38,913 nucleotides of DNA, from NCBI GenBank assembly GCA_028282105.1, contig JANQIO010000246.1, forward strand, positions 1 through 38,913, in the 5' to 3' direction. The notes below the pieces were generated by a model, which did no database searches, had not been told where the DNA came from, and saw only the letters and a program-made list of their open reading frames with translations. This stretch comes from Halieaceae bacterium (GTDB lineage Bacteria; Pseudomonadota; Gammaproteobacteria; Pseudomonadales; Halieaceae). The translations under genes and the position numbers were made by a program. Shown here piece by piece: positions 13,525-38,913 of the stretch (position 1 is its first letter; each line of letters opens with the position of its first letter).

Positions 13525-13533
13525 ATCAGCGCC

Positions 13534-13896: not shown

Positions 13897-13918
13897 GGTT
13901 TAGCAGAGAGTCGCCACG

Positions 13919-15937: not shown

Positions 15938-15940
15938 CGC

Positions 15941-15970: not shown

Positions 15971-15985
15971 AGCCAGATACAAAGG

Positions 15986-16450: not shown

Positions 16451-16476
16451 AGCAGAAATTCTCAATCAATCACTGT

Positions 16477-18113: not shown

Positions 18114-18118
18114 CCTGT

Positions 18119-21474: not shown

Positions 21475-21477
21475 GAG

Positions 21478-23960: not shown

Positions 23961-24761
23961 TCAGCTAGCCTCCGGCGATTCCTGATAGCCCAGGAGCTCA
24001 AGACTGGGAACAAAGTCTGCGCAGGCCGCGAGGGCCTTCGCCAGCTCGACGCTCACAGAGTGCTGACGAGACTCGATTACCGTCGTTCGGGATTCCATGC
24101 TGCCGCCTTTTCCAGCGGCGTTATTGGTAACACTGGTAAAGTCCTTCCACCGCGACTCAAACGCAGGGTCATAGTTGATTTTCAACAGCCCACATAGAGT
24201 TTGCAGGTTTGACGCTGGATTCAGCGTGAACTCTTCGAAGCGAACAAAGCCAATGTCCGCGGCAAGTTCTGCGAAAGCCCTGTAGCCTTTCAAGAAACGG
24301 CGCACATCCAGCTTGTCCTCTATCTCAGGCTGACGCCTCAGGCTCTCCCACTGAGTCACCGGGTGCCTCACGATTGCGGCCTGGTTAAGATCAAAACTTG
24401 ATGCCAGGACCTCCGCGGTTGTTAGCTTATAGCGCGGCTCAGTAACCCAGGGAACGCCCGTGAAATCGAGGTGCGACCAATCCCTGACCACAAGCTGGTC
24501 ACCGCGTGAGCGCACAGAACGATGAATCAATTCAACAGCCTGCAGCCAGTTAAGATCATCCAGCCCGCTGGCTTTGGCCTCTGCCTGTACATCAATGCCC
24601 AGCCAGTCTCGCGCCTGAGCCAGCGGATTCGCCCTGCCACCGTTCGCAAAGGGGTGTATTTCACTGAGCAGCGCAATCCCCTGCATGGCGCCAATGCACC
24701 GCGCTACCAGCGTACCGCCGGCGCGCGCCATATGGTGAATGACGGCGATAGAATCACTCAT
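23961..24761 (-). CDS. Sulfotransferase-like P-loop protein
   Basis: About 266 residues. The N-terminus has IHHMARAGGTLVARCIGAM (8-26), a divergent 5'-phosphosulfate loop, and AIVRHPVTQWESL (129-141) fits the 3'-phosphate site with Arg132 and Ser140. Similarity to proven sulfotransferases is lower than for the gene at 6605-7429, so a related P-loop transferase is possible. I use the ATG at 24761, 25 bases after the OGT-like stop; an in-frame TTG at 24803 would overlap that gene. It probably shares the OGT transcript, suggesting that protein glycosylation and sulfation are linked. Confidence 0.65.
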   Translation of the reverse strand: MSDSIAVIHHMARAGGTLVARCIGAMQGIALLSEIHPFANGGRANPLAQARDWLGIDVQAEAKASGLDDLNWLQAVELIHRSVRSRGDQLVVRDWSHLDFTGVPWVTEPRYKLTTAEVLASSFDLNQAAIVRHPVTQWESLRRQPEIEDKLDVRRFLKGYRAFAELAADIGFVRFEEFTLNPASNLQTLCGLLKINYDPAFESRWKDFTSVTNNAAGKGGSMESRTTVIESRQHSVSVELAKALAACADFVPSLELLGYQESPEAS

Positions 24762-24786
24762 CTGCTTGTTCGTTCGGCATTGGGTG

Positions 24787-27357
24787 CTATCTCTCCACAG
24801 CAACCGTCAGATTTTCAGATCGCCACTGCTTCCAAACACCTTGCACCGCCTCATGAAACTGCTGCGCAAAGGCATCGGCATCCATCAGCGGTGAGGCGAT
24901 CAGTCGATCTCGCAAGCCCGCCCGGGTAGCAGCCAGAGATTTCGTGTCCGCGGCCTTCTCGGTGGCAACACGGACGTAGTCCTCAGCATCCTCTGCAATC
25001 CAGTCAGGCATGCCCAGGTTATTCATAATGCTCTCCCCCGCATGAGAGAGAAATCGCTCTCCGCGCCGGGTAAGGACAGGCACACCCATCCAAAGTGATT
25101 CAAAGCTTGTCGTACAACCGGTATAGGGGAACGGATCCAGGCCGATATCCACACGGCCGTATGATTCGAGGATATGCTCCCGGGACCGGGACGCCTCGAA
25201 CATAAGCCGTTCTTCCTCAACCCCCAGCGCCACAAAGTCGCCCAGCAGCTTGTCGCGGTATACCGGGTCGGTGAGCACCTGATTCTTGAGCAACAGCCTG
25301 GCGCCCTCTACGGACTTGAGCACTTCAGCCCACAACTCTATAACCTTCCGGTTTAACTTCGCGAAGTTATTGAAGCTGCCAAAGGTGATGTAGCTATTCT
25401 CTGCAGCCGGCAAGGTGGACACGTCCGGGGAGCCCTGGGGCTGCGAGAGGCACTGGTAGCTATGGGGAAGCACCAGGGGTTTCTCTACAAAATGGGCTTG
25501 CTCATCCGGCGGTGTCACCCATGGGTCGCCGATGATGTAGTCGATAGCGTCTAGACCCGTGGTCGAAAGATAGCCCAGCCAGGTAATCTGCACGGGTGCG
25601 GGCTTACGGGCGAAGGTGCCCATGCGGTTATGCGACGTGTGGCCAGATACGTCAAGCAGCACGTTTACGGCATCACCGTGGATCTTCGCCGCCAGCTGCT
25701 CAGGAGTATCGCGGTAACAAAGATCCCATTTGTCGGCCATTCTGGCGAAGCGCTTGCTGGTGTCATCCTGCACGACCACCGTGGAGTACAGGTAAAGTTC
25801 AACGCCCATGGCCGCCAGCTTGCCCAGCACGGACTCCAGGAAAAAACCAACCGGGTGATCCCGCATATCCCCGGAGACGATGCCCAGACGCAGGGGGGCT
25901 TCACTGTCTCGCGCAACTGTCCAGGAAGTATAGCGCGGCGTGTCGCTGTGGAACTTTGTCGCCCACCCCCTGGTGATATCCAGCAGCTCCTGGGCTGTGA
26001 CCTCAGGATTGTAGAGGTGGGCAAAGATCCAATTGCTGTGGTGCTCCGAGCTAGCCAGCGGAGACGCCAGTGCGCTGTCATAGTAGTGCATGGATTGGTC
26101 ATAGACGCCGGTCAGTGAACTGATACCGGCCAGGTTTAACTGGGCGGAAAAATAGTCGGGCGAAGACTCCAGAATCGACCTGTAGATGCCTATCGCCTCG
26201 GCAAAGCACTTGGCGTTCTGGTAGCAGATGCCCAGGCGATTCTTAATTGAAAGATCATCAGGCCTTTGCTGTGAGCCTGTCTTGGCAAACTCCAGGGCCT
26301 GGTCGATTTTCTGCTGCCCCATCAGGGCGTCAACCAGTGTGTTGTAGGCGCCGATCATGGACTTGTCCATAAGGATCAGCCGACGGCACTCCCATTCCGC
26401 CTGCTGCAACTCACCTTCCGCCAGCAACACCTCGGTCAGGGCCGTCATCGCGGGTTTGTGCCCGGGATTAATGCCTAGTGCTTTCTTCAGTAGTTGCCGC
26501 GCTTTTTCATAGTGACCGCTTCTGGCGGCAATGCGCCCCAGCAGGACGATAGCGGCCACCGCGTCACCCTTGAGCGACAGCGCCTGGCGGGCATGGCGTT
26601 CCGCCTGCATAACATGGCCAAACTCCATGCATGCCACGCCCGCGTTGATGTGGTGAACCGCTTCCGCGGGATTGACCAGCAGCGCCTTCTCGTGGGCGGC
26701 GAGACTGGCAGCCGCCATGGATTTCTCCATATAAACGACACCGAGCTGCCCCCAGGCCTCGTCGTGATGAGGGTCGAGATTGACCACCAGGTTAAATTGC
26801 TGGATGGCCTCATCCAGCGCCCCCAGGTTAGAGAGCGCCAACGCATAGTAGTAGCGTGCAGACAGGTTGGCATCGTCCTGCGTAAGTGCATGCTGGCTAC
26901 GCTGCTTCAGTTCAGCGTAACGCTCGGCGCTAGCGAGCTGACGAAGCTCCTCAATGCTACCCGCGGCTTTGGCCACAGGACCGCCAGCTTGCAGTGCAGA
27001 CTTGAGCTCCTGCAGCGCTTCCGAGCCTGGCAGTCTGGCGAGCCCGTCGCTGACTACGCCAAGCGCTTGTGATGGGCTACCACTTTGAACAAGGTGATTG
27101 GCAAAATAGCCGACGAAGTCGGCATTGTCCGGTTGCAGCCTAACGGCTTCCTGCAGCAACGGTGTCGCATGGGCCTGGTAGCCCGCGGCGCGGGCGATGC
27201 GACCCAGGTAGTGATAGGCGCCGGCATGTTCCCGATCCTGGGCAATAATCTCCTTCAATAGCCGCTCCGCGGTCGCGCTATCGCCAGCGTCGATAAGCTG
27301 GCGCGCCCGGGCGAACGCAGTATCAACTGGCTGCTTTTTACTACTCTTCTTGGGCAT
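24787..27357 (-). CDS. TPR-containing O-GlcNAc transferase-like protein (GT41 / SPINDLY)
   Basis: About 856 residues. The N-terminal half (about 10-430) is a run of tetratricopeptide repeats, for example LDEAIQQFNLVVNLDPHHDEAWGQLG. The C-terminal half (about 476-837) is the SPINDLY/OGT catalytic domain: MRDHPVGFFLESVL with His501 near the OGT catalytic His, GHTSHNRMGTFARKPAPVQ, WLGYLSTTG, FGSFNNFAKLNRKVIELW with Lys667 in the UDP-contact strand, and DPFPYTGCTTSFESLWMGVP. Family enzymes transfer GlcNAc or related sugars to Ser/Thr (or Asn, HMW1C-type) of proteins in the cytosol. The ATG at 27357 (MPKKSSKK) is preferred because an extended -10 overlaps the TTG at 27396; no clear ribosome binding site. 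It lies directly downstream of the Ser/Thr-rich exported protein, the obvious candidate target. Confidence 0.87.
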   Translation of the reverse strand: MPKKSSKKQPVDTAFARARQLIDAGDSATAERLLKEIIAQDREHAGAYHYLGRIARAAGYQAHATPLLQEAVRLQPDNADFVGYFANHLVQSGSPSQALGVVSDGLARLPGSEALQELKSALQAGGPVAKAAGSIEELRQLASAERYAELKQRSQHALTQDDANLSARYYYALALSNLGALDEAIQQFNLVVNLDPHHDEAWGQLGVVYMEKSMAAASLAAHEKALLVNPAEAVHHINAGVACMEFGHVMQAERHARQALSLKGDAVAAIVLLGRIAARSGHYEKARQLLKKALGINPGHKPAMTALTEVLLAEGELQQAEWECRRLILMDKSMIGAYNTLVDALMGQQKIDQALEFAKTGSQQRPDDLSIKNRLGICYQNAKCFAEAIGIYRSILESSPDYFSAQLNLAGISSLTGVYDQSMHYYDSALASPLASSEHHSNWIFAHLYNPEVTAQELLDITRGWATKFHSDTPRYTSWTVARDSEAPLRLGIVSGDMRDHPVGFFLESVLGKLAAMGVELYLYSTVVVQDDTSKRFARMADKWDLCYRDTPEQLAAKIHGDAVNVLLDVSGHTSHNRMGTFARKPAPVQITWLGYLSTTGLDAIDYIIGDPWVTPPDEQAHFVEKPLVLPHSYQCLSQPQGSPDVSTLPAAENSYITFGSFNNFAKLNRKVIELWAEVLKSVEGARLLLKNQVLTDPVYRDKLLGDFVALGVEEERLMFEASRSREHILESYGRVDIGLDPFPYTGCTTSFESLWMGVPVLTRRGERFLSHAGESIMNNLGMPDWIAEDAEDYVRVATEKAADTKSLAATRAGLRDRLIASPLMDADAFAQQFHEAVQGVWKQWRSENLTVAVER

Positions 27358-27395
27358 AACCGGAGGGAAAGAACTGAGGAACTTAAACGCCGCCA

Positions 27396-27404
27396 ATCAT
27401 AGCA
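27396..27404 (-). promoter_or_regulatory. Extended -10 promoter for the OGT-like gene
   Basis: Minus strand TGC-TATGAT: a TGn extension plus a hexamer matching TATAAT at five of six. No good -35 is seen, as expected for an extended -10 promoter. It lies just beyond the terminator of the surface-protein gene and would start transcription about 30 bases before the ATG at 27357. Confidence 0.45.
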
Positions 27405-27423
27405 GAACTCGGAAAGCGAATAA

Positions 27424-27460
27424 GGAAAAAGAAAAGAAAAAGGGGGCCGAAGCCCCCTTT
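27424..27460 (-). terminator. Rho-independent terminator of the surface-protein gene
   Basis: On the minus strand AAAGGGGGC-TTCG-GCCCCCTTT (27460-27439), a nine-pair stem closed by a UUCG tetraloop, followed by a T-rich run interrupted by single Cs to 27424. It ends 25 bases after the stop codon at 27485. A smaller hairpin (CGAAC / GTTCG, 27463-27478) precedes it. Very strong by sequence. Confidence 0.93.
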
Positions 27461-27484
27461 AACGAACAGTGATGTTCGACTAGC

Positions 27485-28882
27485 TTACTTGACGGACCAG
27501 TAAACCGTATCGGTAGAGCTGTCAGCCAGGTTCACCTGCGTGGTAGCCACGTCGATGTCTGAGCTGGGTGCTACAACCGTTACCGTAGCTGCGCCGCGGC
27601 TGCCGCCTTCGAACTCAACCAGGTCAGTCATACGCAGTACCAGGTTCTCACCCGCCGGCAGCGTACCAGAAGCGGCAGGCAGCTCAGTCGCCGTCACACC
27701 GTCTTCCGTGCGGAAGGTGATCTCGTAGGTAACGTCAACACCGCTGCGGCTGTTGAGCAGCAGACGCTGGTTGTAGTCAGCAAACGTGGTCACGTAAGCC
27801 ACTTCAACCGTGGTGCCGTTACGAACGATGTTACCAACACTGCTGGTCGCGGTGGTGGCGCTCGGGCTGGAGTTGGTCTCAGCATGAGTCAGCACAACCG
27901 TCGCGGTGTAAGCGGCGTTCGGAATCACTTCCTCGTCACCGTCAACCGTGGCACACAGGGCACGACCGTTACCGTCAGCCATATCAATGGTAGCCATTGA
28001 GAAAGACGCGGTATCCGGAACCAGCGCAGTGGAGCCTGACGGGTCACAGGTGCCGTCAGTAGCGCCACTCACGTAGAAGCCGGAAGACGTGTTGAAGCCG
28101 AAGTTGCCGCTGTAGGTCACGGTAGAGTTGGACGTAGCGTCAACCAGGTTTGCGAAGGTCGCCGCGCTCAGGTCAGATGCCAGCGAGAAACCGGTCAGCG
28201 CATCGGCAGTGAACAGGCCCAGAACACCAGTGGTGCTGGTAGAGGCGCCGTCGACAAACTCGGTGAAGCCAGTCTGTACTTCCGCCGTCGCGTTAGCAGG
28301 CGTGAAGTCGATATCCAGCGCGTCTGCGATGGACACCACACCACTCGCCGTCTGGTCGGACAGTGCGGGACCACCTGCCAGAGCGTTGCCCTGGTCGGTG
28401 TAGACACGCATGCGAACATCCAGGCTGGAACCGGTCAGGCCAATACCCAGGCTCGGGTTTTGGAAGTCGAGGGTTACGGAAGCCGTCTGGTTGAAACCAG
28501 CACCGCCGGCCAAAACACCGAATACTGCGCTGGTATCGCCGGTCAGGCCGTCGGTCAGAGACGTGCTGGCAGTACCATCCACGTCAACCGCGCCCTGCGG
28601 CAGATCAGACAGCAACGTGCCGCCAGTCCAGTCATAACGGATATAAATCTGGTCGTTTGCAGGGACACCGACCTGAATGAGGCCTTCCACGTCCAGCGCG
28701 CCCGTAGTATCGCCCACACCTACCGGCAGAACACCCGTGGTAGTCGGCGCAATCGACTCGTTGGCGATCGCGATTTCAGTCGTCAGATCGTCGTCGGAGA
28801 CGTTGAACGCAGCCATCGCGCTCACAGAGATGCCAGTCGCCGCGCAGGCCACCGCCACACTCAGTACCTTTTTATTGAACAT
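27485..28882 (-). CDS. Exported Ser/Thr-rich acidic protein, candidate S-layer or surface-coat protein
   Basis: A 465-residue protein with no family I can name. Residues 1-24 are a signal peptide (MFNKK, hydrophobic core, cleavage at AMA-A). By hand count Ser plus Thr make up about 23% of the protein; the mature part is acidic, has one Lys (the last residue) and only two Cys (279 and 310), which fit a conserved disulfide shared with the paralogue at 11093-12475. Sequence alternation suggests a beta-rich fold. Expression looks high: AGGAG seven bases before the ATG, its own promoter (28973-29000), a strong terminator and a biased codon set. The type II secretion operon lies directly upstream on the same strand and an OGT-like gene directly downstream. 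I infer an abundant, possibly glycosylated surface protein. Slr4-type S-layer proteins of marine Gammaproteobacteria are a natural comparison, but homology is untested here. It could instead be a secreted matrix or adhesive protein. Confidence 0.75.
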   Translation of the reverse strand: MFNKKVLSVAVACAATGISVSAMAAFNVSDDDLTTEIAIANESIAPTTTGVLPVGVGDTTGALDVEGLIQVGVPANDQIYIRYDWTGGTLLSDLPQGAVDVDGTASTSLTDGLTGDTSAVFGVLAGGAGFNQTASVTLDFQNPSLGIGLTGSSLDVRMRVYTDQGNALAGGPALSDQTASGVVSIADALDIDFTPANATAEVQTGFTEFVDGASTSTTGVLGLFTADALTGFSLASDLSAATFANLVDATSNSTVTYSGNFGFNTSSGFYVSGATDGTCDPSGSTALVPDTASFSMATIDMADGNGRALCATVDGDEEVIPNAAYTATVVLTHAETNSSPSATTATSSVGNIVRNGTTVEVAYVTTFADYNQRLLLNSRSGVDVTYEITFRTEDGVTATELPAASGTLPAGENLVLRMTDLVEFEGGSRGAATVTVVAPSSDIDVATTQVNLADSSTDTVYWSVK

Positions 28883-28889
28883 ATTGTTA

Positions 28890-28894
28890 CTCCT
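28890..28894 (-). promoter_or_regulatory. Strong ribosome binding site of the surface-protein gene
   Basis: Minus strand AGGAG, seven bases before the ATG at 28882-28880. It is among the best Shine-Dalgarno sites in the window and fixes the start codon. Confidence 0.85.
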
Positions 28895-28972
28895 AACTTT
28901 TCAGTCCAAATCAACGTTGATGAGCCTATGCAATGGTGTGGAATCCCCGACCCCCTGAATAAGCTATTCCGA

Positions 28973-29000
28973 ATTATCCACGCGAACGCCCGATAATCAA
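28973..29000 (-). promoter_or_regulatory. Promoter of the surface-protein gene
   Basis: Minus strand TTGATT (29000-28995), a 16-base spacer, then GATAAT (28978-28973). The -10 matches consensus at five of six, the -35 at four of six. Expected transcription start is near 28966, giving a leader of about 85 bases. It lies in the 276-base gap after gspD and makes the gene independent of the secretion operon. Confidence 0.6.
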
Positions 29001-29158
29001 GCGCTGCGCGATAAACATACCGCACACAGTACATGCCAAAAATAGCACCTCAGCGGAGAGATTCAACCAAATTAGCGATCTTTTGCGGCATTGTGACGGA
29101 ATTCACACAAATTCTGCTCACAATACGCTCCAGCTCTGCAGCCATACCGTCAGCGGGC

Positions 29159-31324
29159 TCAGCGGTCGGTAAAACCGGCCCCGGAATTGGCCCGAAACAC
29201 ATCGGTCAGCTGCTTGGTCAGGTTCTCGGAATCCGCCGGCGTTTCCATAATGTAGGGAATGATCATGACCAGCAGTTCCCGGCGTTCTTCAAGCTCACCG
29301 TCCGACCGAAACAGGGCCCCCAGACCAGGCACTCCACCCAAAAAGGGTACCCCGGTTTCGGTATCGCTGGTAGTGCTGGAGATGAGTCCACCCAGCAGAA
29401 TCGAGCCGCCATCCCGCAGGGTCACCATCGTGGTCAAACTGCGGTTCCGGATGGTGGGGGAGTCAATGCCGCTGGTTTCGTTGACTTCCGCCTCACTGAG
29501 TTCCTGGGTAACCTCAATATCTACAAAACCGGAGTTATGCACTACCGGGCGAATCTGCAACTTAACGCCCGTGCTACGGTAGACCACCTCGGTGACAATG
29601 GGCGCATCGGGATTATTGGTGGATTGTGAGGCCGTGGTGAGCACAGGAATCTCATCGCCGACGTCGATGGACGCTGTTTGGCCACTTTTGACCATCAGTC
29701 GAGGCCGAGACCGAATCTCGGCCCGGCGGTTCTCGTACAGCACCTTGAGAATGGCGCGCACATCACCTGCTTTGTCCAGTGTTGCTGAAAAAGCCGACCT
29801 TCCTGAATCGAGGAATTCCAGTGTCTGGGTCGTCAGGTCGTAACTGTTGTTCAGTGATGATCGGGTCAGGAACTGGAAACTGGACGAATCGGTGTCAGTG
29901 AGCGAAATCTCCGCCAGCAGCACCTCCACCAGTACCGAGGGCGCTACCTGGTCCATTTCCTGTATCACAGGCAGCAGTTCTGCCCACTGCTTACCTGAAC
30001 CACGGAAAATGATGGCATTGCGATTGGTGTCTACAACAAACTGGTTTACGCCCCGATTCCGGCTGATATTTCCGCTCCGTCCCCGCGGCCCCGCCGGATT
30101 GCTTGCGCCACCCTCGAACTCGAGCTCTTCCGCATCTTCATTGCCCAACTGGTTCAGCAGATCGACAATGTAATCGGCCTGGGTATTATTTACCTCGTAG
30201 CTGAAGATGCCGTCCTCAACCGCCAGCTGCTGGCGCCGGTCGATAATCCTTGCCCAGTTTGCAACATGCTCCAGCGTTTCCTCTGACGCGGCGAAAACGA
30301 CAATCTGGTTAGTGCTCTTTAATGGGATGACCATGATGGCGCCATTCGGCGGCCGCGTGCTGACGTCATAGCCCTCGGATTGCAGAATCGATACCAGGTC
30401 AGTTGCGAGATCGGCTACACGCGCATGGGCGGGCTCTATGCTAATGGAGAACCTGCCCCGCATCTGCGGCTGATCCAGCACCTCAATCATGGCCAGCGCT
30501 TGCTCGACAACGCTGACCTTGCCAGTTAGCACCATGGCGTTACGGGAAGGGTCCATCTGTACTTTGAGATCCTGCCCTTTCAACCCCGTTCTTAGCCAGT
30601 TATTGACCTTGGAGGGTTCGACCGCCTTCAGCGGCACAAACACGAATACGGGGCGATGGCTCTCGGGCACTTCCGGCAATGCCAGACCGGTGACCAGGAT
30701 AGGCACATCACTGCTGCCGATGTTCTTGTCGACGGTGAAGACGAACACGCCCTGGTCGTACCGGGTTCGAACACCGTAGTCGACCAGCGTTCTACGCGCG
30801 ACGCGAAACAGCTGCTCCGGCTCAATCGGAGCCGTCAGGCGCAAAGTGACCAGATCAGACAGCGCAGTAACCGATGTATCGAGTGAATAGGGCAGACCGA
30901 GTTGTTCGCCGAAAACGAGGTCGATAAACGCTGGAACCGGGAGGTTGCTATAGCTGGCCTCAATATCCTCGCCGTCCAGTTCGGGAACGTAATCCTGATC
31001 TACCGTGACCGCGATGTTCTTGAGCTTGGGCAGACTGGCACCCGATCCCACCCGTGTTTCGGGGTCAACCAGCTCGGCGTCGACGGCTGTAGCCCCGGCT
31101 CCTTCGGCCTGCGCATTGACCTCGGCACGTCTTTGGGTCGCGGAACCTTGTGCCTCGTCGACGCCTTCCGCGTTGTAGAGTCCCGGATCGCCCTGCCGGT
31201 TGTAGTCGCGCATCGCGGTGCAGGAGACCGTCACCAGCGAAATCAGGGCCGCAAGGCATACTGAGCGCAAGCAACAGGGCGCACTGTTCACGTCAACAGC
31301 GACGGAATTGCCGACTACTCCCAT
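29159..31324 (-). CDS. gspD: Type II secretion outer-membrane secretin GspD
   Basis: A 721-residue secretin forming the outer-membrane channel of the type II secretion system. The hydrophobic N-terminus ends TVSC (Cys35), a near-lipobox, so it may be a lipoprotein like XpsD and need no separate pilotin. A low-complexity Gly/Ala/Glu/Gln linker (about 40-85) precedes N0 (SYSNLPVPAFIDLVFGEQL) and the N1-N3 modules. The C-terminal secretin core has VEVLLAEISL, SGQTASIDVGDEIPVL, SLTTMVTLRDGGSILLGGL and the signature VPFLGGVPGLGALFRS. The ATG at 31324 overlaps the gspN stop by 10 bases; a GTG 33 bases downstream is possible. Last gene of the operon. Confidence 0.95.
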   Translation of the reverse strand: MGVVGNSVAVDVNSAPCCLRSVCLAALISLVTVSCTAMRDYNRQGDPGLYNAEGVDEAQGSATQRRAEVNAQAEGAGATAVDAELVDPETRVGSGASLPKLKNIAVTVDQDYVPELDGEDIEASYSNLPVPAFIDLVFGEQLGLPYSLDTSVTALSDLVTLRLTAPIEPEQLFRVARRTLVDYGVRTRYDQGVFVFTVDKNIGSSDVPILVTGLALPEVPESHRPVFVFVPLKAVEPSKVNNWLRTGLKGQDLKVQMDPSRNAMVLTGKVSVVEQALAMIEVLDQPQMRGRFSISIEPAHARVADLATDLVSILQSEGYDVSTRPPNGAIMVIPLKSTNQIVVFAASEETLEHVANWARIIDRRQQLAVEDGIFSYEVNNTQADYIVDLLNQLGNEDAEELEFEGGASNPAGPRGRSGNISRNRGVNQFVVDTNRNAIIFRGSGKQWAELLPVIQEMDQVAPSVLVEVLLAEISLTDTDSSSFQFLTRSSLNNSYDLTTQTLEFLDSGRSAFSATLDKAGDVRAILKVLYENRRAEIRSRPRLMVKSGQTASIDVGDEIPVLTTASQSTNNPDAPIVTEVVYRSTGVKLQIRPVVHNSGFVDIEVTQELSEAEVNETSGIDSPTIRNRSLTTMVTLRDGGSILLGGLISSTTSDTETGVPFLGGVPGLGALFRSDGELEERRELLVMIIPYIMETPADSENLTKQLTDVFRANSGAGFTDR

Positions 31325-31854
31325 TGGAACAGCCGATACTCAACAATTTCGCCGCTCTCTGCGCCGGTAATCTGTAGGTAAGTGTCCGATATTCCCGACA
31401 CAACCCAGCCTTCTGCAACCACGGTTTCCAGCTCCACCTCAATTAAACCCGCATCATTAGCGGAGGATATCATGAGCGCACGTTGATCATCCGGCATTTT
31501 TACTGGCTTCAACATGGCTGCCAACCTGGGCTCACGCAGGATAGCCACCAGTTGGAGATGCTTGAACACTCCGGGGCGGCCCTCGGTTTCCGGCTCCGGT
31601 TCAGGCTCAGGCTCCGGTAGTTCATCCTCAGCCGGCCCCTCGCCACGGCGCCACTGTTCGCTGGCCATCAGCACCGCCATCAAATCATCGACCGGCGGCG
31701 CGGTCAGCGCCCAGGATTCCCCGAGCCTGAATGAATTGCTGCCAGGCGCCGGGCTGCCGGTCAGCGTACCCAGCAATATCCCAACTGCCAGACCGCCTCC
31801 CGCAGCTGCCGCCGCCAGCCTCAGAGGCAATGGAAGGTTCAGGAAAGCATTCAT
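31315..31854 (-). CDS. gspN: Type II secretion protein GspN (XpsN-like)
   Basis: A 179-residue bitopic inner-membrane protein: short cytoplasmic tail, one helix (about 12-30), a proline-glutamate linker (PEPEPEPEPE, about 80-90) and a periplasmic domain of about 90 residues (GVFKHLQLVAILREP...YLQITGAESGEIVEYRLF) resembling the homology-region domain of GspC/PilP-type proteins. Its place between gspM and gspD matches xpsN of Xanthomonas, whose product bridges XpsL/XpsM to the secretin XpsD. No separate gspC is visible. The ATG at 31854 overlaps the gspM stop as ATGA; longer in-frame starts would intrude into gspM. Confidence 0.75.
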   Translation of the reverse strand: MNAFLNLPLPLRLAAAAAGGGLAVGILLGTLTGSPAPGSNSFRLGESWALTAPPVDDLMAVLMASEQWRRGEGPAEDELPEPEPEPEPETEGRPGVFKHLQLVAILREPRLAAMLKPVKMPDDQRALMISSANDAGLIEVELETVVAEGWVVSGISDTYLQITGAESGEIVEYRLFQWE

Positions 31855-32471
31855 CGTTCCGCCACCCGCTCGGCACCCTCGATAATGAAATCCGCGGCCA
31901 GTTGCATACTGAATCGGTCGCCCCTCAGCGGTGAATAGGAGAGATCTTCCACGGTGACAGCTCTCTCCGATCTCGCCAGCAAATCGAGAAGTGAACGCAC
32001 ATCGCTGGGCTGGATGCGGCCACTCAGCTCCGCCTTGATCTGCCATAGGGGAGGCTCCACCCCCTGCAACGGCCGCAATTCGGACAAGTTGAGACGCACC
32101 TGCTCGAGCCTGCTCTCGGTGGCAACGTACCGTAACCAGGACTGGAATTCAGCTCCGGCGAGGCCACGGCTGCTTGCCTTCCAGAAGCGACCCAGCAAGG
32201 CAGCATTCTGCTCGCGCTCAGCCGCCAGAAAAGACTCAAAACTGGCCTGCTCCACCTCCTGCAGGGAATCCAGCTTTGCCGATCGGGCGGCGATGCGTTT
32301 AAAGTCCTGTGCGGATTCCGCGCGCCAGTCATCCAACACCAGAGTCAGGTAGCACACGAAGATCATCGCCACCGCATATACCATCCAGCGCAACCGCGGT
32401 GTTGTATTTAGTTGGCGCTTCAGGTCCAGCACCAGGCTGTGCTCAGCCAGTTTCGCCAGCGACGGGTTCAT
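31851..32471 (-). CDS. gspM: Type II secretion inner-membrane protein GspM
   Basis: A 206-residue bitopic protein: cytoplasmic segment to residue 28, one helix (about 29-46, MVYAVAMIFVCYLTLVL), a coiled-coil-like stretch rich in Ala, Glu and Arg (about 48-95), then a ferredoxin-like periplasmic domain. This is the GspM/PilO layout. GspM partners GspL in the inner-membrane platform. ATG at 32471 overlaps the gspL stop as ATGA, and its own stop overlaps the gspN start the same way. Assignment rests on architecture and operon position. Confidence 0.8.
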   Translation of the reverse strand: MNPSLAKLAEHSLVLDLKRQLNTTPRLRWMVYAVAMIFVCYLTLVLDDWRAESAQDFKRIAARSAKLDSLQEVEQASFESFLAAEREQNAALLGRFWKASSRGLAGAEFQSWLRYVATESRLEQVRLNLSELRPLQGVEPPLWQIKAELSGRIQPSDVRSLLDLLARSERAVTVEDLSYSPLRGDRFSMQLAADFIIEGAERVAER

Positions 32472-33580
32472 GAGCGCACCTGGTTTATCACAAGAGAGAT
32501 GTCGTGTTCGCCGTCTCGAAGCCCGGGCTCAATGCGCGCATCCAGGAAAAAGCTGCCTGACTCCAGGCGACTCACAACCTCCCGGCTATCCAGCTCGGGG
32601 TTCTTGACCACCACCTGCAAGCTGCCCTGCTGATACTCCCATTCCACGAGTTCATAGGGCTGATCGGCCAGCAATCGGGTGAATTCCGCCACCACTTCCA
32701 ACTGCGTATAGGCGGGAAGCTGTGCAGCAAGCGCCCGATTCGCCGCGCTAAGACGCTCTGCGTCCAGCCGATATTGCAGCTTCTCACCCAATGACGCCTC
32801 AAGGTCGGCAATATTGCCCTCCAGGTAACTGGTTCGAATTGCAAAGGCTGCCAGAACTCCCAGCTCCAGGCAGAACACCATGGTCGCAATCAGCGCGCCG
32901 CCCCACATCAGGGCCTTTTCGTCCCTCAGAAGCTGGCGCCAGTCCAGCGCGGGCTCACTCCATGGCTCTGGTTGCCACCGGGGGGCCGCCTGACCAACTT
33001 CCGGCACGCCCTGTGTTCGTGCGCCGCGCTGCCAGGCGCTCGCGGCCTCTTCGCTGAAGGGCTGCCGGCACCATCGGGACTCAACAAGGCGGCCGCCCTT
33101 CCATAGCTGGTAATCGATTCCTTCCAGACAGGCACAGGCCTCAGGCCCATCCCTGCCCGGCGCGAGCATTACCGTCTCGGGAAGTAGGCGATTCTTGCCA
33201 GCACCGGCCGGCAGGCCGCCTCTTGCCTTCTCGAGCCACTCCGAATCCCATATCCATACCGCCGGCGCCGCAGATTCAGGGTCGGCAACGTAATGCCCCG
33301 GCCTGGGCCAGGGGCTGTGTTTGCGGACCTGCTGCTCAATATAGGGGCGTCGCGCCGCGGACGGCACTTCCTTCAGGTCTACGGTAAAAAACAGACACTC
33401 ACTGCGGGCGATAAGCACACACGCCGACCGCGCTGGTACCTCTATCGACTCTATGCTGTCCCCGGAGAGGATGTGGTATGTCCTAGAAGACACTTCCTTC
33501 GACACTGAAGGCAGTTTCAAATGCCTGCCTTTCTCCACTGTTTTCCGCCAGGTGGTTGTAGTCCATCTGCCAAGGTCCAT
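32468..33580 (-). CDS. gspL: Type II secretion assembly protein GspL
   Basis: Up to 370 residues: an actin-like cytoplasmic domain (to about 225) that binds GspE, one helix (about 226-250, LMWGGALIATMVFCLELGVLAAFAI), a coiled coil (about 252-295) and a ferredoxin-like periplasmic domain. The start is uncertain. ATG 33580 has AGGA eight bases upstream but overlaps gspK by 98 bases; GTG codons at 33538, 33505 and 33493 would shorten the protein by 14-29 residues with weaker ribosome binding sites. Ends in an ATGA overlap with gspM. Confidence 0.82.
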   Translation of the reverse strand: MDLGRWTTTTWRKTVEKGRHLKLPSVSKEVSSRTYHILSGDSIESIEVPARSACVLIARSECLFFTVDLKEVPSAARRPYIEQQVRKHSPWPRPGHYVADPESAAPAVWIWDSEWLEKARGGLPAGAGKNRLLPETVMLAPGRDGPEACACLEGIDYQLWKGGRLVESRWCRQPFSEEAASAWQRGARTQGVPEVGQAAPRWQPEPWSEPALDWRQLLRDEKALMWGGALIATMVFCLELGVLAAFAIRTSYLEGNIADLEASLGEKLQYRLDAERLSAANRALAAQLPAYTQLEVVAEFTRLLADQPYELVEWEYQQGSLQVVVKNPELDSREVVSRLESGSFFLDARIEPGLRDGEHDISLVINQVRS

Positions 33581-34505
33581 AAAACCCGTCCTGAGTCATG
33601 GTCAGGCTCTGCACGATAAAATAAGAGCAGGCACTGCACCAAATCTTTACATTGAAACTGTCTGAGGGGAAAAACCGGAATTCGTTCTCTTCCCACACGT
33701 TGATTACACCCACCGCATCGGCAACGCCATCGAGGGTTCTGAAGGCATGACTATTTCTGGCTGCAATCAGCTCCTCGACCTCTCCAGGCGTCAGGCGAAG
33801 GCGCATGCGTAGCAAGGGCGCAGGGGCGGTATTCACATTGAGCGCATTTGCATAGGCAATGGTGAAGAGCTCCCGCCAGCGCTCCCGGGTATCTCCCTCC
33901 AGCAGCGCCTCCCAACCCAGCACATTGAAGAGCTCTTCTTCCGAGCGCAGGTACCAATTGGTAGGACCGGGCAGCCCGGTATTTTCATATTGCAGCAGCT
34001 CGGCACCATTGAAGCGGCGGTTTTCGTTTTCATCAATGTAATCTGCCAGCGCCGCTGCCAGCTCCTGGGCTTGCTGGGTACCTACCTCGGGCTTTAACAC
34101 TTCCGCCAGCAACTTCTGAGTGGATTCTGCGTTTACGGCCAACAGCCCCGCCTGATCCTGAATGCTGAAAAAGGCGTTGCCGACCCCTCGATACAGAGCT
34201 CCGTCCAAACGAATCTCATTACCTACCGGCGTGAGGGTTGAGACGCTCTCGTCTTTGGGGACATTCTGATCTTCCTGGTAGACGGTCAGGCCGGCCAGCG
34301 TTCGTCTGCGGGTAGCGAGCATGTAGTGAACGCTGGCTGCTGTCGAAGCCATGTCCAACTCGGTATCTACGCGCTGTTTTAGCGCAAGCGCCTGCAGTAC
34401 CTGTTCCTCAACATAGCTGTGAAACAGGCCGGCGAGGACGACCAGTATTGCCACCATCCATATCGTTGCAGCGAGTACGAAGCCTTCTTGCCTAGTCGCG
34501 ACCAA
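33483..34505 (-). CDS. gspK: Type II secretion minor pseudopilin GspK
   Basis: About 340 residues, much longer than other pseudopilins because of the inserted alpha domain typical of GspK. The leader MVATRQEG is cut before Phe (G-F), followed by FVLAATIWMVAIL; position +5 is Ala, not Glu, the usual GspK exception. GspK caps the pseudopilus tip with GspI and GspJ. The helix-hairpin-helix-like VNTAPAPLLRMRLRLTPGEVEELIAAR is a family mark. The TTG at 34505 gives the normal eight-residue leader and a 14-base overlap with gspJ; ATG 34529 is the alternative. Confidence 0.85.
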   Translation of the reverse strand: MVATRQEGFVLAATIWMVAILVVLAGLFHSYVEEQVLQALALKQRVDTELDMASTAASVHYMLATRRRTLAGLTVYQEDQNVPKDESVSTLTPVGNEIRLDGALYRGVGNAFFSIQDQAGLLAVNAESTQKLLAEVLKPEVGTQQAQELAAALADYIDENENRRFNGAELLQYENTGLPGPTNWYLRSEEELFNVLGWEALLEGDTRERWRELFTIAYANALNVNTAPAPLLRMRLRLTPGEVEELIAARNSHAFRTLDGVADAVGVINVWEENEFRFFPSDSFNVKIWCSACSYFIVQSLTMTQDGFYGPWQMDYNHLAENSGERQAFETAFSVEGSVF

Positions 34506-35124
34506 AGAGCACCACCTGGCTGGGCACATATTGACTTTTGCGGATGGAAATCACCGCGGTTAGGGATTCGGCCAGACGCCTGTCATCAGCATCTCTAGTG
34601 AACAAGCTGAGCCGTATCGCCTGTGGAATCTGACGGTCCTCACCGACCACCCAGGCCTGCTTCCACTGCCCAGACTCCGACAGATACTCGAATGCCGCCT
34701 CGACACTCACCGGCCACTCCCGCACCACTACTGGCGCATGGGGCGGTTCCTGGTAGATCAGGCGCCTGTGGACGTCATCGGCCGCCAGCCCCCAGCGGAA
34801 CTCAGTGGCGACGCCGGAGCGACCCCAAAGCGGTGAAAAACTGGCGCCCCGCAGATTGTCGGGTGATCCGGTGAACGCCAGTTCGTCATCGAAATACGGC
34901 ACTACGGACTCCAGGCTTGAACGCCACCAGCCGGCCACCAGCGCTTCCCGTGTCTCCACCAACTGTCTTTGTTTGAGGCGTTGGTAGGAACCCAGCATGT
35001 AGGCATAGCCCTGAAACATGACGGAGCTGATCATGCCGATAAGCGTCAATACGACCAGCACCTCCAGGAGCGTCAGACCGCCCTGCCGCACGCTACTGGA
35101 TTTCAAGGTTCCGGACCCTTTCAT
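34492..35124 (-). CDS. gspJ: Type II secretion minor pseudopilin GspJ
   Basis: About 210 residues. The prepilin motif is RQGG-LTLLEVLVVLTLIG: the first mature residue is Leu rather than Phe or Met, with Glu at +5. GspJ binds GspI and GspK in the tip complex. I use ATG 35124, which overlaps gspI by 32 bases; earlier in-frame codons lie deep in gspI. The body is aromatic-rich as in GspJ. Confidence 0.85.
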   Translation of the reverse strand: MKGSGTLKSSSVRQGGLTLLEVLVVLTLIGMISSVMFQGYAYMLGSYQRLKQRQLVETREALVAGWWRSSLESVVPYFDDELAFTGSPDNLRGASFSPLWGRSGVATEFRWGLAADDVHRRLIYQEPPHAPVVVREWPVSVEAAFEYLSESGQWKQAWVVGEDRQIPQAIRLSLFTRDADDRRLAESLTAVISIRKSQYVPSQVVLFGRD

Positions 35125-35518
35125 ACTGAGCGACGCGAAACGTCCAGTTGCCAAGCGGACGGGATTTGGAGAACAGCGCGAGGTCAACCGCGTAAAGCCC
35201 ATGGTCGTAGGCACCGACACTTCCTACCCTGCCGCGACCCACCGTGACGGGCTCGACCAGACTTGCTGTCCAGGCGCAGTCATAGCCATTGATCTCAAAT
35301 CTACCGCTGGCGCCATCAGCCAGGGTCAACAGCTGCACCTGCCGGTAAGCTTCCAGCAGAGTATTCTGCGACGCTACTACCGCTTCCGCCCTGCGCAGCG
35401 AAATTAAATCGGTGTTGACCAGGCCGAACAAACCGGCCAGCGAAAGGCTCAGTATCACCATAGCCACCATCGCCTCCACCAGCGTGAATCCGCGGGAAGC
35501 GTGCGCTCTAAGTCTCAT
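35093..35518 (-). CDS. gspI: Type II secretion minor pseudopilin GspI
   Basis: 141 residues with leader MRLRAHASRG and mature start FTLVEAMVAMVILSLSLAGL, Glu at +5. GspI starts pseudopilus tip assembly. ATG 35518 overlaps the gspH stop by 11 bases. The length is slightly above the usual 120-130 residues. Confidence 0.87.
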   Translation of the reverse strand: MRLRAHASRGFTLVEAMVAMVILSLSLAGLFGLVNTDLISLRRAEAVVASQNTLLEAYRQVQLLTLADGASGRFEINGYDCAWTASLVEPVTVGRGRVGSVGAYDHGLYAVDLALFSKSRPLGNWTFRVAQYERVRNLEIQ

Positions 35519-35930
35519 CTTCCTTAAGCTCCGGCTCGCAGAAAGGTGCCGCCAGGCTATAGTTCCAGACCCGATCCGACTGATGGGAAAGCGTGATCAC
35601 ACCACCTGTGCAGAACCCATTGCTTTTGAATACCAGGCCGTCCGAAAAGGCGACGTTCCAGCCATCGGGTACGCTCATAACTTGCGCCCCAGTCGCCTGC
35701 ACAACGCCAGCTACAATATCCGACCGCCGGGTATTGGCGTCAATTGAGAGAAGGTGGATATCTCGCAACAACTGATCGCGCTCGCCGCGGAGCACCAGGT
35801 TGTCATAAATAAGGCCCACTCGAGGTACGATCAGGCTGCTGACCAGACCCAGCAGCACGAGCACCATAAGAATTTCGAGCAGAGTGAATCCGCGCGACCG
35901 ATTACTTCGTGTCTGGGACAAATCCAACAT
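35508..35930 (-). CDS. gspH: Type II secretion minor pseudopilin GspH
   Basis: 140 residues. MLDLSQTRSNRSRG is the leader, cut before FTLLEILMVLVLLGLVSSLIVPRVG; Glu at +5. GspH links the tip to the GspG shaft. ATG 35930 overlaps gspG by 29 bases; upstream in-frame codons are within gspG. Two Cys (FCTGG and PFCEPE) near the C-terminus could form a disulfide. Confidence 0.85.
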   Translation of the reverse strand: MLDLSQTRSNRSRGFTLLEILMVLVLLGLVSSLIVPRVGLIYDNLVLRGERDQLLRDIHLLSIDANTRRSDIVAGVVQATGAQVMSVPDGWNVAFSDGLVFKSNGFCTGGVITLSHQSDRVWNYSLAAPFCEPELKEDET

Positions 35931-36351
35931 CTGCGTCCAGGCCCTCGCCGCCGGGCTTACCATCAGCCCCGAGCGAGTACAGGGTAAAGTCCTGTAGCCC
36001 AGCAGGCTCCCTCGCATACTCGTAATCACGTGACCAGGGATCCAGTGGCACCTCGTCGTCAAGATACGGGCCCTGCCAATTGCTGGCAGCGCGCTCATCC
36101 GAAGGCGCGCGAACCAGAGCCTCAAGACCCTCGTCCGTTTCCGGGAAATCACCGACGTCCAGCCGATAGGTCAGCAGTGCCCCCTTGAGCATCTTTACCT
36201 GGGTTTCCGCTGTCTTCACTTTGGATGAGTCCAACTTGCCAAACAGGCGTGGCCCTACCAGACCGGCAAGCATGCCGAGAATCACCAGCACCACCAGCAA
36301 TTCGATCATCGAAAAACCAGCCTGCCTGACCTTAAAAACACTCATTTTCAT
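35902..36351 (-). CDS. gspG: Type II secretion major pseudopilin GspG
   Basis: 149 residues; the main pseudopilus subunit. Leader MKMSVFKVRQAG is cut before FSMIELLVVLVILGMLAGLVGP, with Glu at +5. The C-terminal SLGADGKPGGEGLDADVGFVP is the conserved calcium-binding loop of GspG. Start at ATG 36351 or 36345; a TTG lies just upstream. It follows gspF by 26 bases. Confidence 0.93.
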   Translation of the reverse strand: MKMSVFKVRQAGFSMIELLVVLVILGMLAGLVGPRLFGKLDSSKVKTAETQVKMLKGALLTYRLDVGDFPETDEGLEALVRAPSDERAASNWQGPYLDDEVPLDPWSRDYEYAREPAGLQDFTLYSLGADGKPGGEGLDADVGFVPDTK

Positions 36352-36377
36352 CAATTAACCACTTAACTATCCGGCTA

Positions 36378-37568
36378 TTAGAAAGCAACGTCGTTGACGC
36401 TGGTGATGGCGAGAATAACACCGAGAATCATGACTCCAATAACCGCTCCAATGATCAGGATCGCCGCCGGCTCAATTAGGGCCAACACCTGCGCGGTACG
36501 GGTCTTTCGTGTTTTTTCGCAGATACTCGACACAGAGCTCATCATCTGCGGCAGGCGGCCGGTCTTTTCCCCGACTCTCACCAGGTTGTACGCCGTCGGA
36601 GACAACACGTGATTTTCCTTCAGGGCGTCAGACAGGGCATCGCCGCCGCGCACCGCCTGCTCAACGCGATAGAGGCGCTGCCGGCGAATCTCCAGCTGTA
36701 CATTATTGCGTGACAGTGCCAGCGCTGACACTAGTTCCACGCGATTGTTGAGCAAGGCGGCCATTGAGCTGGCCCAATTCCCTATGTCCCGCTCATGAAG
36801 CCAGCTGCCGATCAAAGGCAATCGCGCGGAGAAATTAAGCATGCGCGTTCGAAACCCGGCATCGCGCAAGCGTACAGTAAGCAACGCCGCCAGACCGCCG
36901 AGCCCGGCGACCAGGAAGTACCAGTTTTCGTTGAACCAGAGGCCACCGTTGATCACGATGTTCGCCAGCAAGGGCATATCGTCATTGCCCTGCACAAGAT
37001 TGGCGAACTTTGGCACGACAAATGCGAAGATCAGTACGATGGCTCCGATTCCCGAAAACACCAGGATGGCCGGATAGATAAGGGCGCTGCGAAACTCATC
37101 GCGCACCGACTCGGCGTAGTGCAACTGATCGACGGCCTCGCGCAGGGAGGCGGACAGTGCGCCAGTCGCCTCGCCGGTTTCGACAAGTTGCAAAACCACT
37201 GGAGGCAGTACCAGCTTGCCTTTGCGAATGGCGCTGGAAAGGCTTTCCCCACTCTGGAGCTGCTGGCCAATCTGAGTGAAGAACTCGTTGATTTCAGGGT
37301 GATACTCGCCCTGCTGCAAGGCATCAACTGCTTCGGCGATGCCTACCTCAGATTCCAGCAGGGTACAGAACTCATCCAGTGCCTGGATAATGTGCTCGCT
37401 GCGAAGCCGGCGCCTGGTGGCCCTAGAGGCAGTTTTCGCCGGTGAAAAATCAAACGGCGCCACACCTTGGGCTTCCAGAACGCGTTGCGCCTCTCGCTCG
37501 CTGGGTGCATCGATCAACCCGCTGACTATCTCACCGTCGCGAGTAAACGCCTGATAGCTGAGCTTCAT
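36378..37568 (-). CDS. gspF: Type II secretion inner-membrane platform protein GspF
   Basis: 396 residues, the standard GspF size. Two cytoplasmic helical-bundle domains (about 65-165 and 265-370) alternate with three predicted helices (about 170-190, 220-240, 370-392). Motifs: FCTLLESEVGIAEAVDAL in the first repeat and ALAL-SRNNVQLE in the second. GspF forms the rotor-like platform driven by GspE. ATG 37568 overlaps the gspE stop. Confidence 0.93.
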   Translation of the reverse strand: MKLSYQAFTRDGEIVSGLIDAPSEREAQRVLEAQGVAPFDFSPAKTASRATRRRLRSEHIIQALDEFCTLLESEVGIAEAVDALQQGEYHPEINEFFTQIGQQLQSGESLSSAIRKGKLVLPPVVLQLVETGEATGALSASLREAVDQLHYAESVRDEFRSALIYPAILVFSGIGAIVLIFAFVVPKFANLVQGNDDMPLLANIVINGGLWFNENWYFLVAGLGGLAALLTVRLRDAGFRTRMLNFSARLPLIGSWLHERDIGNWASSMAALLNNRVELVSALALSRNNVQLEIRRQRLYRVEQAVRGGDALSDALKENHVLSPTAYNLVRVGEKTGRLPQMMSSVSSICEKTRKTRTAQVLALIEPAAILIIGAVIGVMILGVILAITSVNDVAF

Positions 37569-38913
37569 CAGGCCGCCTCTGCTTCCATGCCCGTCACTCT
37601 ATACACTTCTTCGACAGACGTTATGCCCTTGGCCACTTTGAGCAGGCCATCCTGCCGCAGGGTCCGATTACCCTGCCTGGCGGCCAGCTGTCGCATTTCA
37701 TGGATTGGCCGGGAGTGGACAATCATGTCATGCAACTCGGGCGTCACAGAGATGAGCTCGTAAATGCCGCTGCGGCCCTTGTAGCCGGTGCCCTGACAGC
37801 GAGGACAACCCACCGCCTTGCGCGCAGCGATCTCAGCTCCACTGTAGCCGGGAACGGACGCAATCTCCCCTCGCATCTGCTCACCGAGCTCTACCGGTTC
37901 AGCGCAGTGATCGCATAGTGAACGCACCAGCCGTTGGGCCTGGACTCCCAGCATCGGGGCTGCGACGAGGAAAGGCTCTACACCCATATCGACCAGGCGG
38001 GTAAATGCAGATATCGCGTCATTGGTATGCAGCGTGGAGAGTACCAGGTGCCCCGTTAGCGCCGACTGGATAGCAATTTCTGCGGTTTCGAGATCACGTA
38101 CCTCACCGATCATGATGACATCTGGATCCTGGCGCAGGATGGCCTTAAGCGCCCTGGCAAAGGTGTAGCCAATCTCGGCGTGTGCCTGGATCTGGGTAAT
38201 CCCATCCAGCTTGTACTCCACCGGATCTTCTACCGTAATGATTTTCTTTTTTCCGTCATTGGAAGAATCCAGTGCGGAGTAGAGCGTAGTGGACTTACCC
38301 GATCCGGTGGGCCCGGTCACCAACACAATACCATGGGCTTCGCCCACCCATCGCTGCATCAGCTCCAGGTGATCCGCTTCCATGCCCAGGGTGGCAAGCG
38401 TCACTTCGTCTCGCTGCTTGGGCAGCAGACGCATGACAATGGATTCACCCTGCACGTCAGGTACCGTTGACACGCGAATGTCCATCTCCCTGCCACTGAC
38501 GCGGGTTGTTAATGAGCCGTCCTGGGGCAGGCGCCGCTCGGCGATATCCAGATCCGCGATCAGCTTGATCCTTGAAGCTATGGCGGCAAACCGATCCTGT
38601 GGCTGCTCCAGCCGCGTATGCAGCACGCCGTCGACGCGAAAGCGGACGGCAAAGTTTGTTTCTCCGGGCTCAACGTGTATATCCGAGGCGCCGGCGTCCA
38701 GGGCCTGGGACATCATATTGTTTACAAACTCAATAATTGGCGCCTCTTCCGCCAGCTCTGCCAGCGCTCTCGCACCTTCCCCTCCCTGGAACAGATCCTC
38801 TACGGCGTGCTCACGCCGCAGGTAATCAGCGTAACCATCTACATACTGCTGATTGGCGAGAAAGTAGCGAATCTCAAAATCAGAATAAAAACGATCAAGC
38901 ACTTCGCGAGCGA
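37568..38913 (-). CDS. gspE: Type II secretion ATPase GspE, N-terminus missing at the right edge
   Basis: The last ~448 codons; the reading frame continues to the window edge (an in-frame GTG at 38902 is internal, not the start). Visible: the N2-domain end, Walker A GPTGSGKST, the Asp-rich region VEDPVEYKLDGI, Walker B VIMIGEVRD after QDPD, the His box TGHLVLSTLHTND and a tetra-cysteine zinc site (CDHC...CPRC) as in GspE rather than PilB-like relatives lacking it. GspE is the cytoplasmic hexameric ATPase that powers pseudopilus growth. The operon promoter is outside the window. Confidence 0.95.
   Translation of the reverse strand, partial: AREVLDRFYSDFEIRYFLANQQYVDGYADYLRREHAVEDLFQGGEGARALAELAEEAPIIEFVNNMMSQALDAGASDIHVEPGETNFAVRFRVDGVLHTRLEQPQDRFAAIASRIKLIADLDIAERRLPQDGSLTTRVSGREMDIRVSTVPDVQGESIVMRLLPKQRDEVTLATLGMEADHLELMQRWVGEAHGIVLVTGPTGSGKSTTLYSALDSSNDGKKKIITVEDPVEYKLDGITQIQAHAEIGYTFARALKAILRQDPDVIMIGEVRDLETAEIAIQSALTGHLVLSTLHTNDAISAFTRLVDMGVEPFLVAAPMLGVQAQRLVRSLCDHCAEPVELGEQMRGEIASVPGYSGAEIAARKAVGCPRCQGTGYKGRSGIYELISVTPELHDMIVHSRPIHEMRQLAARQGNRTLRQDGLLKVAKGITSVEEVYRVTGMEAEAA

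Follow-up and report, generated by a model that had tools for sequence, protein, structure and literature searches.

Gene content and expression signals of the locus

The window analysed here is the whole of a 38,913-nucleotide contig (JANQIO010000246.1) from an uncultured marine bacterium of the Halieaceae. Its minus strand carries a T2SS operon in the order gspE-F-G-H-I-J-K-L-M-C/N-D, with the 5' end of gspE cut by the end of the contig, followed by the gene of a surface-layer-like protein (SLP1), a GT41 glycosyltransferase gene and the sulfotransferase-like gene ST1 (Table 1). This is the gene content, order and strand that a sequence-only reading of the same DNA had described. GspE, GspF, GspG and GspD could be assigned clearly through NCBIfam, GspK through Pfam and GspH, GspI and GspJ through their prepilin motifs; GspM is a weak assignment, and GspL and the GspC/N-like gene were assigned from their position, size and conservation in two congeners.

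Table 1. Features of the window, in order of position
Feature	Coordinates	Strand	Evidence
ST2, sulfotransferase-like	6605..7429	-	family members match PF13469/PF00685, up to 1e-6
GT4-type glycosyltransferase	10060..10995	-	PF13692 above cutoff; accompanies SLP/ST2 genes in other genomes
SLP2, SLP1 paralogue (32% identity)	11093..12475	-	sequence comparison
Surface-glycan cassette	12793..23951	.	GT2 genes, GtrA, possible GT-C-type membrane proteins, isomerase, oxidoreductase, methyltransferase
ST1, sulfotransferase-like	23961..24758	-	ortholog above PF13469 cutoff; AF2 model matches 4gox, TPST2; most likely start 24758
GT41 glycosyltransferase with TPR repeats, SPINDLY-like	24787..27357	-	PF13844 E=2e-44, 152 bits vs cutoff 25; most likely start ATG 27357
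Strong intrinsic terminator after SLP1, before GT41 gene	27437..27460	-	stem in two congeners, sequence changed
SLP1, signal-peptide, Ser/Thr-rich, acidic, all-beta surface-layer-like protein, 465 aa	27485..28882	-	CAI, composition, family of 19 sequences, AF2 model
Promoter-like site TTGATT-16-GATAAT and near-invariant leader with RBS	28883..29000	-	conserved in three species
12-bp palindrome ATCAACGTTGAT in SLP1 leader	28921-28910	-	leader near-invariant across three species
gspD, secretin	29159..31324	-	PF00263 E=3e-43; TIGR02517 E=9e-77, under TIGR02517 cutoff; tree
gspC/xpsN-like	31315..31989	-	position, size, conservation in two congeners
gspM-like	31851..32471	-	weak PF10741 E=0.0076; conserved in two congeners
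gspL-like	32468..33580	-	position, size, conservation in two congeners; no Pfam match
gspK	33483..34529	-	PF21687 and PF03934, both above cutoff
gspJ-like minor pseudopilin	34492..35220	-	prepilin motif; kept in congeners
gspI-like minor pseudopilin	35093..35518	-	prepilin motif
gspH-like minor pseudopilin	35508..35954	-	prepilin N-methylation motif; weak TIGR01708
gspG, major pseudopilin	35902..36354	-	TIGR01710 E=3e-50, above cutoff
gspF	36378..37568	-	TIGR02120 E=1e-72
gspE, T2SS ATPase, 5' end cut	37568..38911	-	TIGR02533 E=4e-168

SLP1 (S+T 23%, pI 4.05) had also been described as strongly expressed-looking, and its CAI of 0.70, calculated against ribosomal genes, indeed falls within the range of the ribosomal genes themselves (0.49-0.80), the gsp genes lying at 0.39-0.52. 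With its own promoter-like leader and terminator the gene is predicted to be a separate transcription unit, and because the terminator stands between them, SLP1 and the GT41 gene are not simply one operon. No family was found for SLP1 in Pfam or NCBIfam, a PDB sequence search with a profile of the SLP family returned only a cadherin at E=0.26, and tblastn of the SLPs against plasmids found nothing. The AF2 model is all-beta; its Foldseek/VIA matches to Ig-like and adhesin structures are weak (TM <0.3, Z <8) and indicate a common arrangement only; none is a confident fold match.

A further part of the locus, SLP2 and ST2, is absent from the sequence-only account: the SLP1 paralogue SLP2 sits with a GT4-type glycosyltransferase gene and this second sulfotransferase-like gene. 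The gene content of the surface-glycan cassette differs in congeners (compared with L013 and L015).

Linkage of the secretion system to the SLP family, and known S-layer loci

With respect to export, the genome carries a second, canonical T2SS in a separate gsp operon. The order T2SS-SLP1-GT41-ST1 is common to the three congeneric MAGs for which there were data, whose SLP1 proteins are 54-64% identical, and a T2SS adjoins SLP relatives in Alteromonadaceae, in Cellvibrio, in one Pseudomonadales MAG and in three further genomes. In the GspD tree, which includes long branches (L104, L105, L108), the secretins beside this SLP family form an 11-row clade (support 100/100) that extends across host families and stands apart from the GspDs of the other Halieaceae sampled; the secretin appears to be co-inherited with the SLP family and not with host taxonomy. 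The second T2SS, the T2SS-SLP linkage in relatives and the secretin tree all support the dedicated export that the sequence-only reading had proposed, and it is very probable that this T2SS exports SLP1. This export half of the reading is well supported, but it is of a kind already known from Aeromonas Sps/VapA, Slr4 and NpdA. The proposed adjacency of gsp, surface-protein and OGT-like genes in relatives held for gsp and SLP, beyond the genus, while its GT41 part was, among the loci examined, confined to one genus.

Among the known systems, the Aeromonas Sps T2SS/VapA locus shares the E-F-G-H-I-J-K-L-M-orf-D-SLP order of the window, and in A. salmonicida a sulfotransferase-domain gene, ORF19, lies two genes after vapA (PMC4413209, PMC4483657). 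This locus differs in having no GT41 listed, a single SLP and a position inside the O-antigen cluster, the comparison being made at the level of gene content and order. Slr4 of Pseudoalteromonas tunicata (EAR28894) resembles SLP1, as judged from descriptions, in having a T2SS immediately upstream, a signal peptide and no Pfam domain, and its hosts, like that of the window, are marine Gammaproteobacteria; Slr4, with a coding region of 1,737 bp, exceeds SLP1 in size, and glycosylation goes unmentioned in its paper (PMC7821379, PMC11094555). Lacimicrobium is listed among the Slr4 carriers (PMC7821379, PMC11094555), and the T2SS-linked SLP of Lacimicrobium is 30% identical to SLP1. The S-layer/nanopod protein NpdA, reported in other Halieaceae, likewise has a gsp cluster upstream of its gene (PMC10765051, PMC3110197), but the GspD of the Halieaceae NpdA-like loci belongs to a different clade, and hhalign comparison of SLP1 with four NpdA-like Halieaceae proteins gave no detectable similarity (probability 10%, with only the signal peptide aligned). 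We regard it as likely that SLP1 forms an S-layer and, a little less confidently, that the whole locus is a Slr4/VapA-like S-layer locus.

The putative modifying enzymes

The closest solved relative of the GT41 enzyme is the SPINDLY O-fucosyltransferase (7y4i, E=4e-96). Both SPINDLY (PDB 7y4i, 8dtf) and the window enzyme combine TPR repeats with a GT41 domain, a catalytic Lys (K667, equivalent to SPY K665) and a Tyr donor gate (Y745, equivalent to SPY Y744, a Cys in human OGT), the latter also kept in the congeners; D497, H501 and T749 are also present. They differ in that SPY Ser496 is a Pro here and in that the window enzyme is bacterial and linked to a secreted protein. The gate is not decisive for fucose, since the bacterial XcOGT and TtOGT also carry Tyr; nevertheless, a SPINDLY-like GT41 with this gate makes a hexose or deoxyhexose likelier than a hexosamine. 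The Tyr gate also led us to give less weight to a plain O-GlcNAc transferase, and the hexosamine that had been expected on the protein is probably the wrong sugar. That the OGT-like enzyme decorates the surface protein is only plausible: the GT41 gene adjoins SLP1 in three congeneric species, but at no other SLP locus examined was a GT41 found. The chance that it acts on SLP1 seems to us about even. It is the sulfotransferases and the GT4-type glycosyltransferase, and not GT41, whose conservation beside SLP genes runs deeper.

ST1 and ST2 themselves score under the Pfam cutoff and only their relatives score above it, the ST1 ortholog in G037 for example reaching 30.2 bits against a cutoff of 27. 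The AF2 model of ST1 has a sulfotransferase fold (4gox, 2e-6; TPST2, 2.2e-6; prob 1.00, TM about 0.5-0.6), no PDB match to ST2 was found by sequence, and profile comparison revealed no link between ST1 and ST2 beyond an N-terminal motif. Taken with an APS kinase for donor supply (PF01583, E=1e-70), the relatives' scores and the ST1 fold predict that both are PAPS sulfotransferases. Where ST2 has relatives, in Alteromonadaceae and elsewhere, they occur as single copies linked to an SLP gene, which they adjoin in most genomes. Sulfotransferases of other, unrelated subfamilies lie beside further SLP loci, NpdA-like ones included. This association in distant relatives suggests that such bacterial protein coats may be sulfated. 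Sulfated S-layer glycans are known in archaea.

Proposed pathway and its alternatives

The modification half of the sequence-only reading is partly supported, and in our reading glycosylation and sulfation would probably fall on the coat or on the glycan that anchors it. We envisage that the strong transcription unit of SLP1 would yield the protein in bulk, that Sec would carry it across the inner membrane and that the adjacent SLP-specific T2SS would export it to form a surface lattice. The SPINDLY-like GT41 could act as HMW1C does, adding sugar in the cytoplasm to SLP1, or to a different envelope protein, ahead of passage through Sec. The Haemophilus influenzae HMW1A-B-C system, in which a GT41-type enzyme modifies an exported surface adhesin, is a precedent, although it employs two-partner secretion and an Asn-linked hexose (PMC2877744). 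Finally, the layer, or a surface polysaccharide that anchors it, may carry glycans built or sulfated by PAPS-dependent ST1 and ST2 together with the GT4-type enzyme and the products of the variable cassette. We put sulfation by ST1 and ST2 of glycans on the coat or its anchor slightly below an even chance. More speculative still is the generalization that sulfation is common among the S-layers that Gammaproteobacteria export by a T2SS, unrelated sulfotransferase subfamilies having been repeatedly recruited beside unrelated S-layer genes (the SLP family here, NpdA-like and, by literature, VapA), with a SPINDLY-like GT41 priming the layer protein with a sugar in the present case; a narrowly targeted literature search turned up no report of a sulfated S-layer. 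S-layer chemistry is poorly known in Gram-negatives. If the coat or what anchors it is indeed the target of the linked sulfotransferases, the orphan sulfotransferase gene of Aeromonas salmonicida would be explained, marine bacteria would gain an anionic protein shell, and S-layer anchoring, phage reception and the biofilm matrix would become accessible to genetics.

The strongest competitor, which we hold to be a serious but lesser possibility, is that the glycosyltransferases and sulfotransferases make or sulfate an S-layer-binding LPS O-polysaccharide or exopolysaccharide, the SLP staying unmodified and GT41 having some other protein target. Gram-negative S-layers bind LPS, the Aeromonas S-layer genes lie within the O-antigen cluster and the cassette includes polyprenol-type glycan genes (GtrA, GT2). 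In the same direction, LPS is required for layer assembly in Delftia (PMC3110197), and a lack of glycosylation has been reported for the A. salmonicida SLP (PMC3958437). Nevertheless, ST2 stays with the SLP gene in genomes that differ in their other glycan genes, and no sulfate was found in the A. salmonicida O-antigen despite the sulfotransferase-domain gene near vapA. The GT41 enzymes whose function is established are known as modifiers of proteins, which also counts against this alternative. A regulatory role for GT41 in the cytoplasm, with its place in the locus owed to chance or hitch-hiking, is rather unlikely. In favor of such a role, SPINDLY and OGT have regulatory functions, the gene is cut off from SLP1 by a terminator and the linkage is restricted to one genus; yet that linkage survives the divergence of SLP1 across three species while the adjacent cassette turned over, and ST1 begins only 28 bp downstream. 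Less likely again is that SLP1, instead of forming a crystalline S-layer, is built of stacked Ig-like domains and serves in abundance as an adhesin or a protein of the biofilm matrix. Its all-beta model, which weakly resembles adhesins, integrin legs and RbmA, might suggest this, but its expression signals, its 465 aa size, its linkage with an S-layer type T2SS and its relative in Lacimicrobium, a genus of Slr4-homologue carriers, favor an S-layer protein. Although T2SSs commonly have many substrates, a general secretion system that exports many enzymes and merely neighbors the SLP gene is improbable here, as the genome already has a canonical T2SS and this GspD groups with secretins that track the SLP family, away from those of the other Halieaceae sampled.

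The probable layer-protein locus and its secretion system

The window spans contig C6 completely and derives from a 4.1-Mb metagenome-assembled genome (MAG), whose closest relatives in a named genome collection are the Halieaceae MAGs PL25a_bin.6, PL23b_bin.40 and MO_074.B9, corresponding to the same-genus genomes G038, G037 and G039. The proposed succession of secretion operon, surface protein, OGT-like gene and sulfotransferase-like gene is present in its entirety on the minus strand: gspE (cut), F, G, H, I, J, K, L, M, a C/N-like gene, D, the layer-like protein SLP1, the SPINDLY/OGT-like glycosyltransferase GT41 and the sulfotransferase-like ST1. This order is retained in the two congeners with long enough contigs for comparison (SLP1 identity 62-64% and 54-56%). 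Beyond the genus, SLP1 relatives occur in Alteromonadaceae (Bowmanella, Lacimicrobium, Aestuariibacter, Alteromonas), a Cellvibrio MAG, a Pseudomonadales MAG and three further genomes. Type II secretion (T2SS) genes adjoin the SLP gene in all the named loci, and in each locus read further among those three genomes.

Dedicated export, as the sequence-only reading had proposed, is favored by this linkage, by a second, canonical gsp operon elsewhere in the same genome (contig C230; the third secretin is PilQ-like) and by the GspD phylogeny. In that tree, which contains three long branches, the secretins beside the SLP1 family form one clade (support 100/100) spanning host families, while the GspDs of other Halieaceae, many of them encoded ahead of NpdA-like proteins, group in a separate one. 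The T2SS thus tracks the layer protein rather than the host, and of all the sequence evidence this co-inheritance speaks most strongly for a dedicated exporter. We favor an Slr4/VapA-like S-layer locus with its own T2SS; export of the layer protein by that system is well supported by analogy with known systems.

The T2SS-SLP arrangement as such is already known: the Aeromonas sps-vapA gene order is identical to that of this T2SS and SLP1 (PMC4413209), and the Slr4 and NpdA genes are likewise T2SS-linked. SLP1 showed no detectable relationship to the NpdA-like proteins found elsewhere in the Halieaceae. A relationship to Slr4 is more probable, indirectly through Lacimicrobium, since that genus is among the carriers listed in the Slr4 paper and the T2SS-linked SLP of L. 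alkaliphilum is 30% identical to SLP1. In many other Halieaceae (loci L041-L054), a small lipoprotein-like gene (~140 aa) lies between gspD and the NpdA-like gene.

Expression of SLP1 and the neighboring modules

SLP1 (465 aa, Ser+Thr 23%, pI 4.05) has a signal peptide recognized by eye. Its codon adaptation to ribosomal genes, 0.70, lies inside the ribosomal range (0.49-0.80) and above the gsp genes (0.39-0.52) and its paralogue SLP2 (0.46), bearing out the earlier impression of strong expression. Upstream, three species share the promoter-like TTGATT-16-GATAAT and, after it, a near-invariant leader that includes a ribosome-binding site (RBS); a terminator follows SLP1 in 3/3, its stem altered in one. 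Together these features mark SLP1 as a discrete high-expression unit. Two congeners likewise have SLP2, and in a third it is partly present.

Features of the layer-protein locus
Feature	Position	Description	Remarks
ST2	6605-7429	second sulfotransferase-like gene	after GT4-type gene, one membrane-protein gene between
GT4-type gene	10060-10995		follows SLP2
SLP2	11093-12475	second copy of layer-protein family, 32% identity	ordinary codon usage
Glycan gene cassette	12793-23951		between GT41/ST1 unit and SLP2
Perfect 12-bp palindrome ATCAACGTTGAT	28921-28910	in near-invariant SLP1 leader, downstream of promoter and upstream of RBS; possible operator or RNA-stability element	shared by three species

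Proposed modification of the layer or of its anchor

Our reading is that the linked enzymes probably modify the layer or its glycan anchor. The main rival reading has the enzymes for glycan and sulfate acting on the anchoring polysaccharide. The cassette has GtrA/GT2 genes in the window, and its counterparts differ in two congeners (L013, L015: DegT-, FkbM- and PhyH-like genes, by eye), a turnover that resembles that of variable surface-glycan islands. The claimed gsp-surface gene-OGT adjacency holds for T2SS and SLP within and beyond the genus, and for GT41 in the two congeners; among the SLP loci examined outside the genus, no GT41 was found beside the SLP genes. Decoration of SLP1 by the OGT-like enzyme is accordingly favored by the one observation and disfavored by the other, and we advance GT41 action on SLP1 as a hypothesis. 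The closest solved structure to GT41 is Arabidopsis SPINDLY (E 4e-96). The active-site Asp, His, Lys, Tyr and Thr are retained in the present enzyme (as D497, H501, K667, Y745 and T749), whereas SPINDLY Ser496 is Pro502 here. The donor pocket is narrowed by the Tyr (PMC9715652), which would make GlcNAc a less likely sugar than fucose or a plain hexose; as other bacterial GT41s have this Tyr too, several sugars are possible.

Sulfation at the locus is likewise hypothesized. The predicted ST1 model matches the sulfotransferases 4gox and TPST2, one ST1 ortholog exceeds the Pfam cutoff, and the genome encodes an APS kinase. ST2 relatives are single-copy in 11/14 SLP genomes, and in ten of these the distance to an SLP gene is no more than a few kb; in G037, ST2 lies ~15 kb from SLP1 on one contig, with SLP2 on a different contig, and in the Cellvibrio MAG it is split across contig ends. 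The two SLP genomes without ST2 have other sulfotransferase types beside SLP: a PF13469 protein at 0.27 kb (G205) and an HxPKTAG-type protein (G497). The latter is homologous (E ~1e-69) to genes immediately downstream of gspD in six further, NpdA-type loci of Halieaceae (L057, L061-L065); in the single locus read throughout, an NpdA-like gene comes next. A PF13469 match lies ≤5 kb from SLP in 9/9 tabulated genomes (random placement would give 0.01-0.04 such matches near an SLP), a crude figure, as six are Alteromonadaceae, only genomes with a listed match were tabulated and positions came from tables. A sulfotransferase-domain gene reported two genes beyond vapA in A. salmonicida, in whose O-antigen no sulfate was seen (PMC4483657), agrees with this linkage pattern. 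In a class-wide sample, strong ST2 matches occurred in only 4/369 genomes. Two were SLP genomes already known; in the others (L117, L118), the GT4-type gene recurs alongside proteins with signal peptides and several further sulfotransferase-like genes, though their possible layer proteins gave no match to the SLP profile. The window's genome has ~15 PF13469 sulfotransferase matches (on contigs such as C38, C50, C184 and C196), one of which adjoins the APS kinase on C196.
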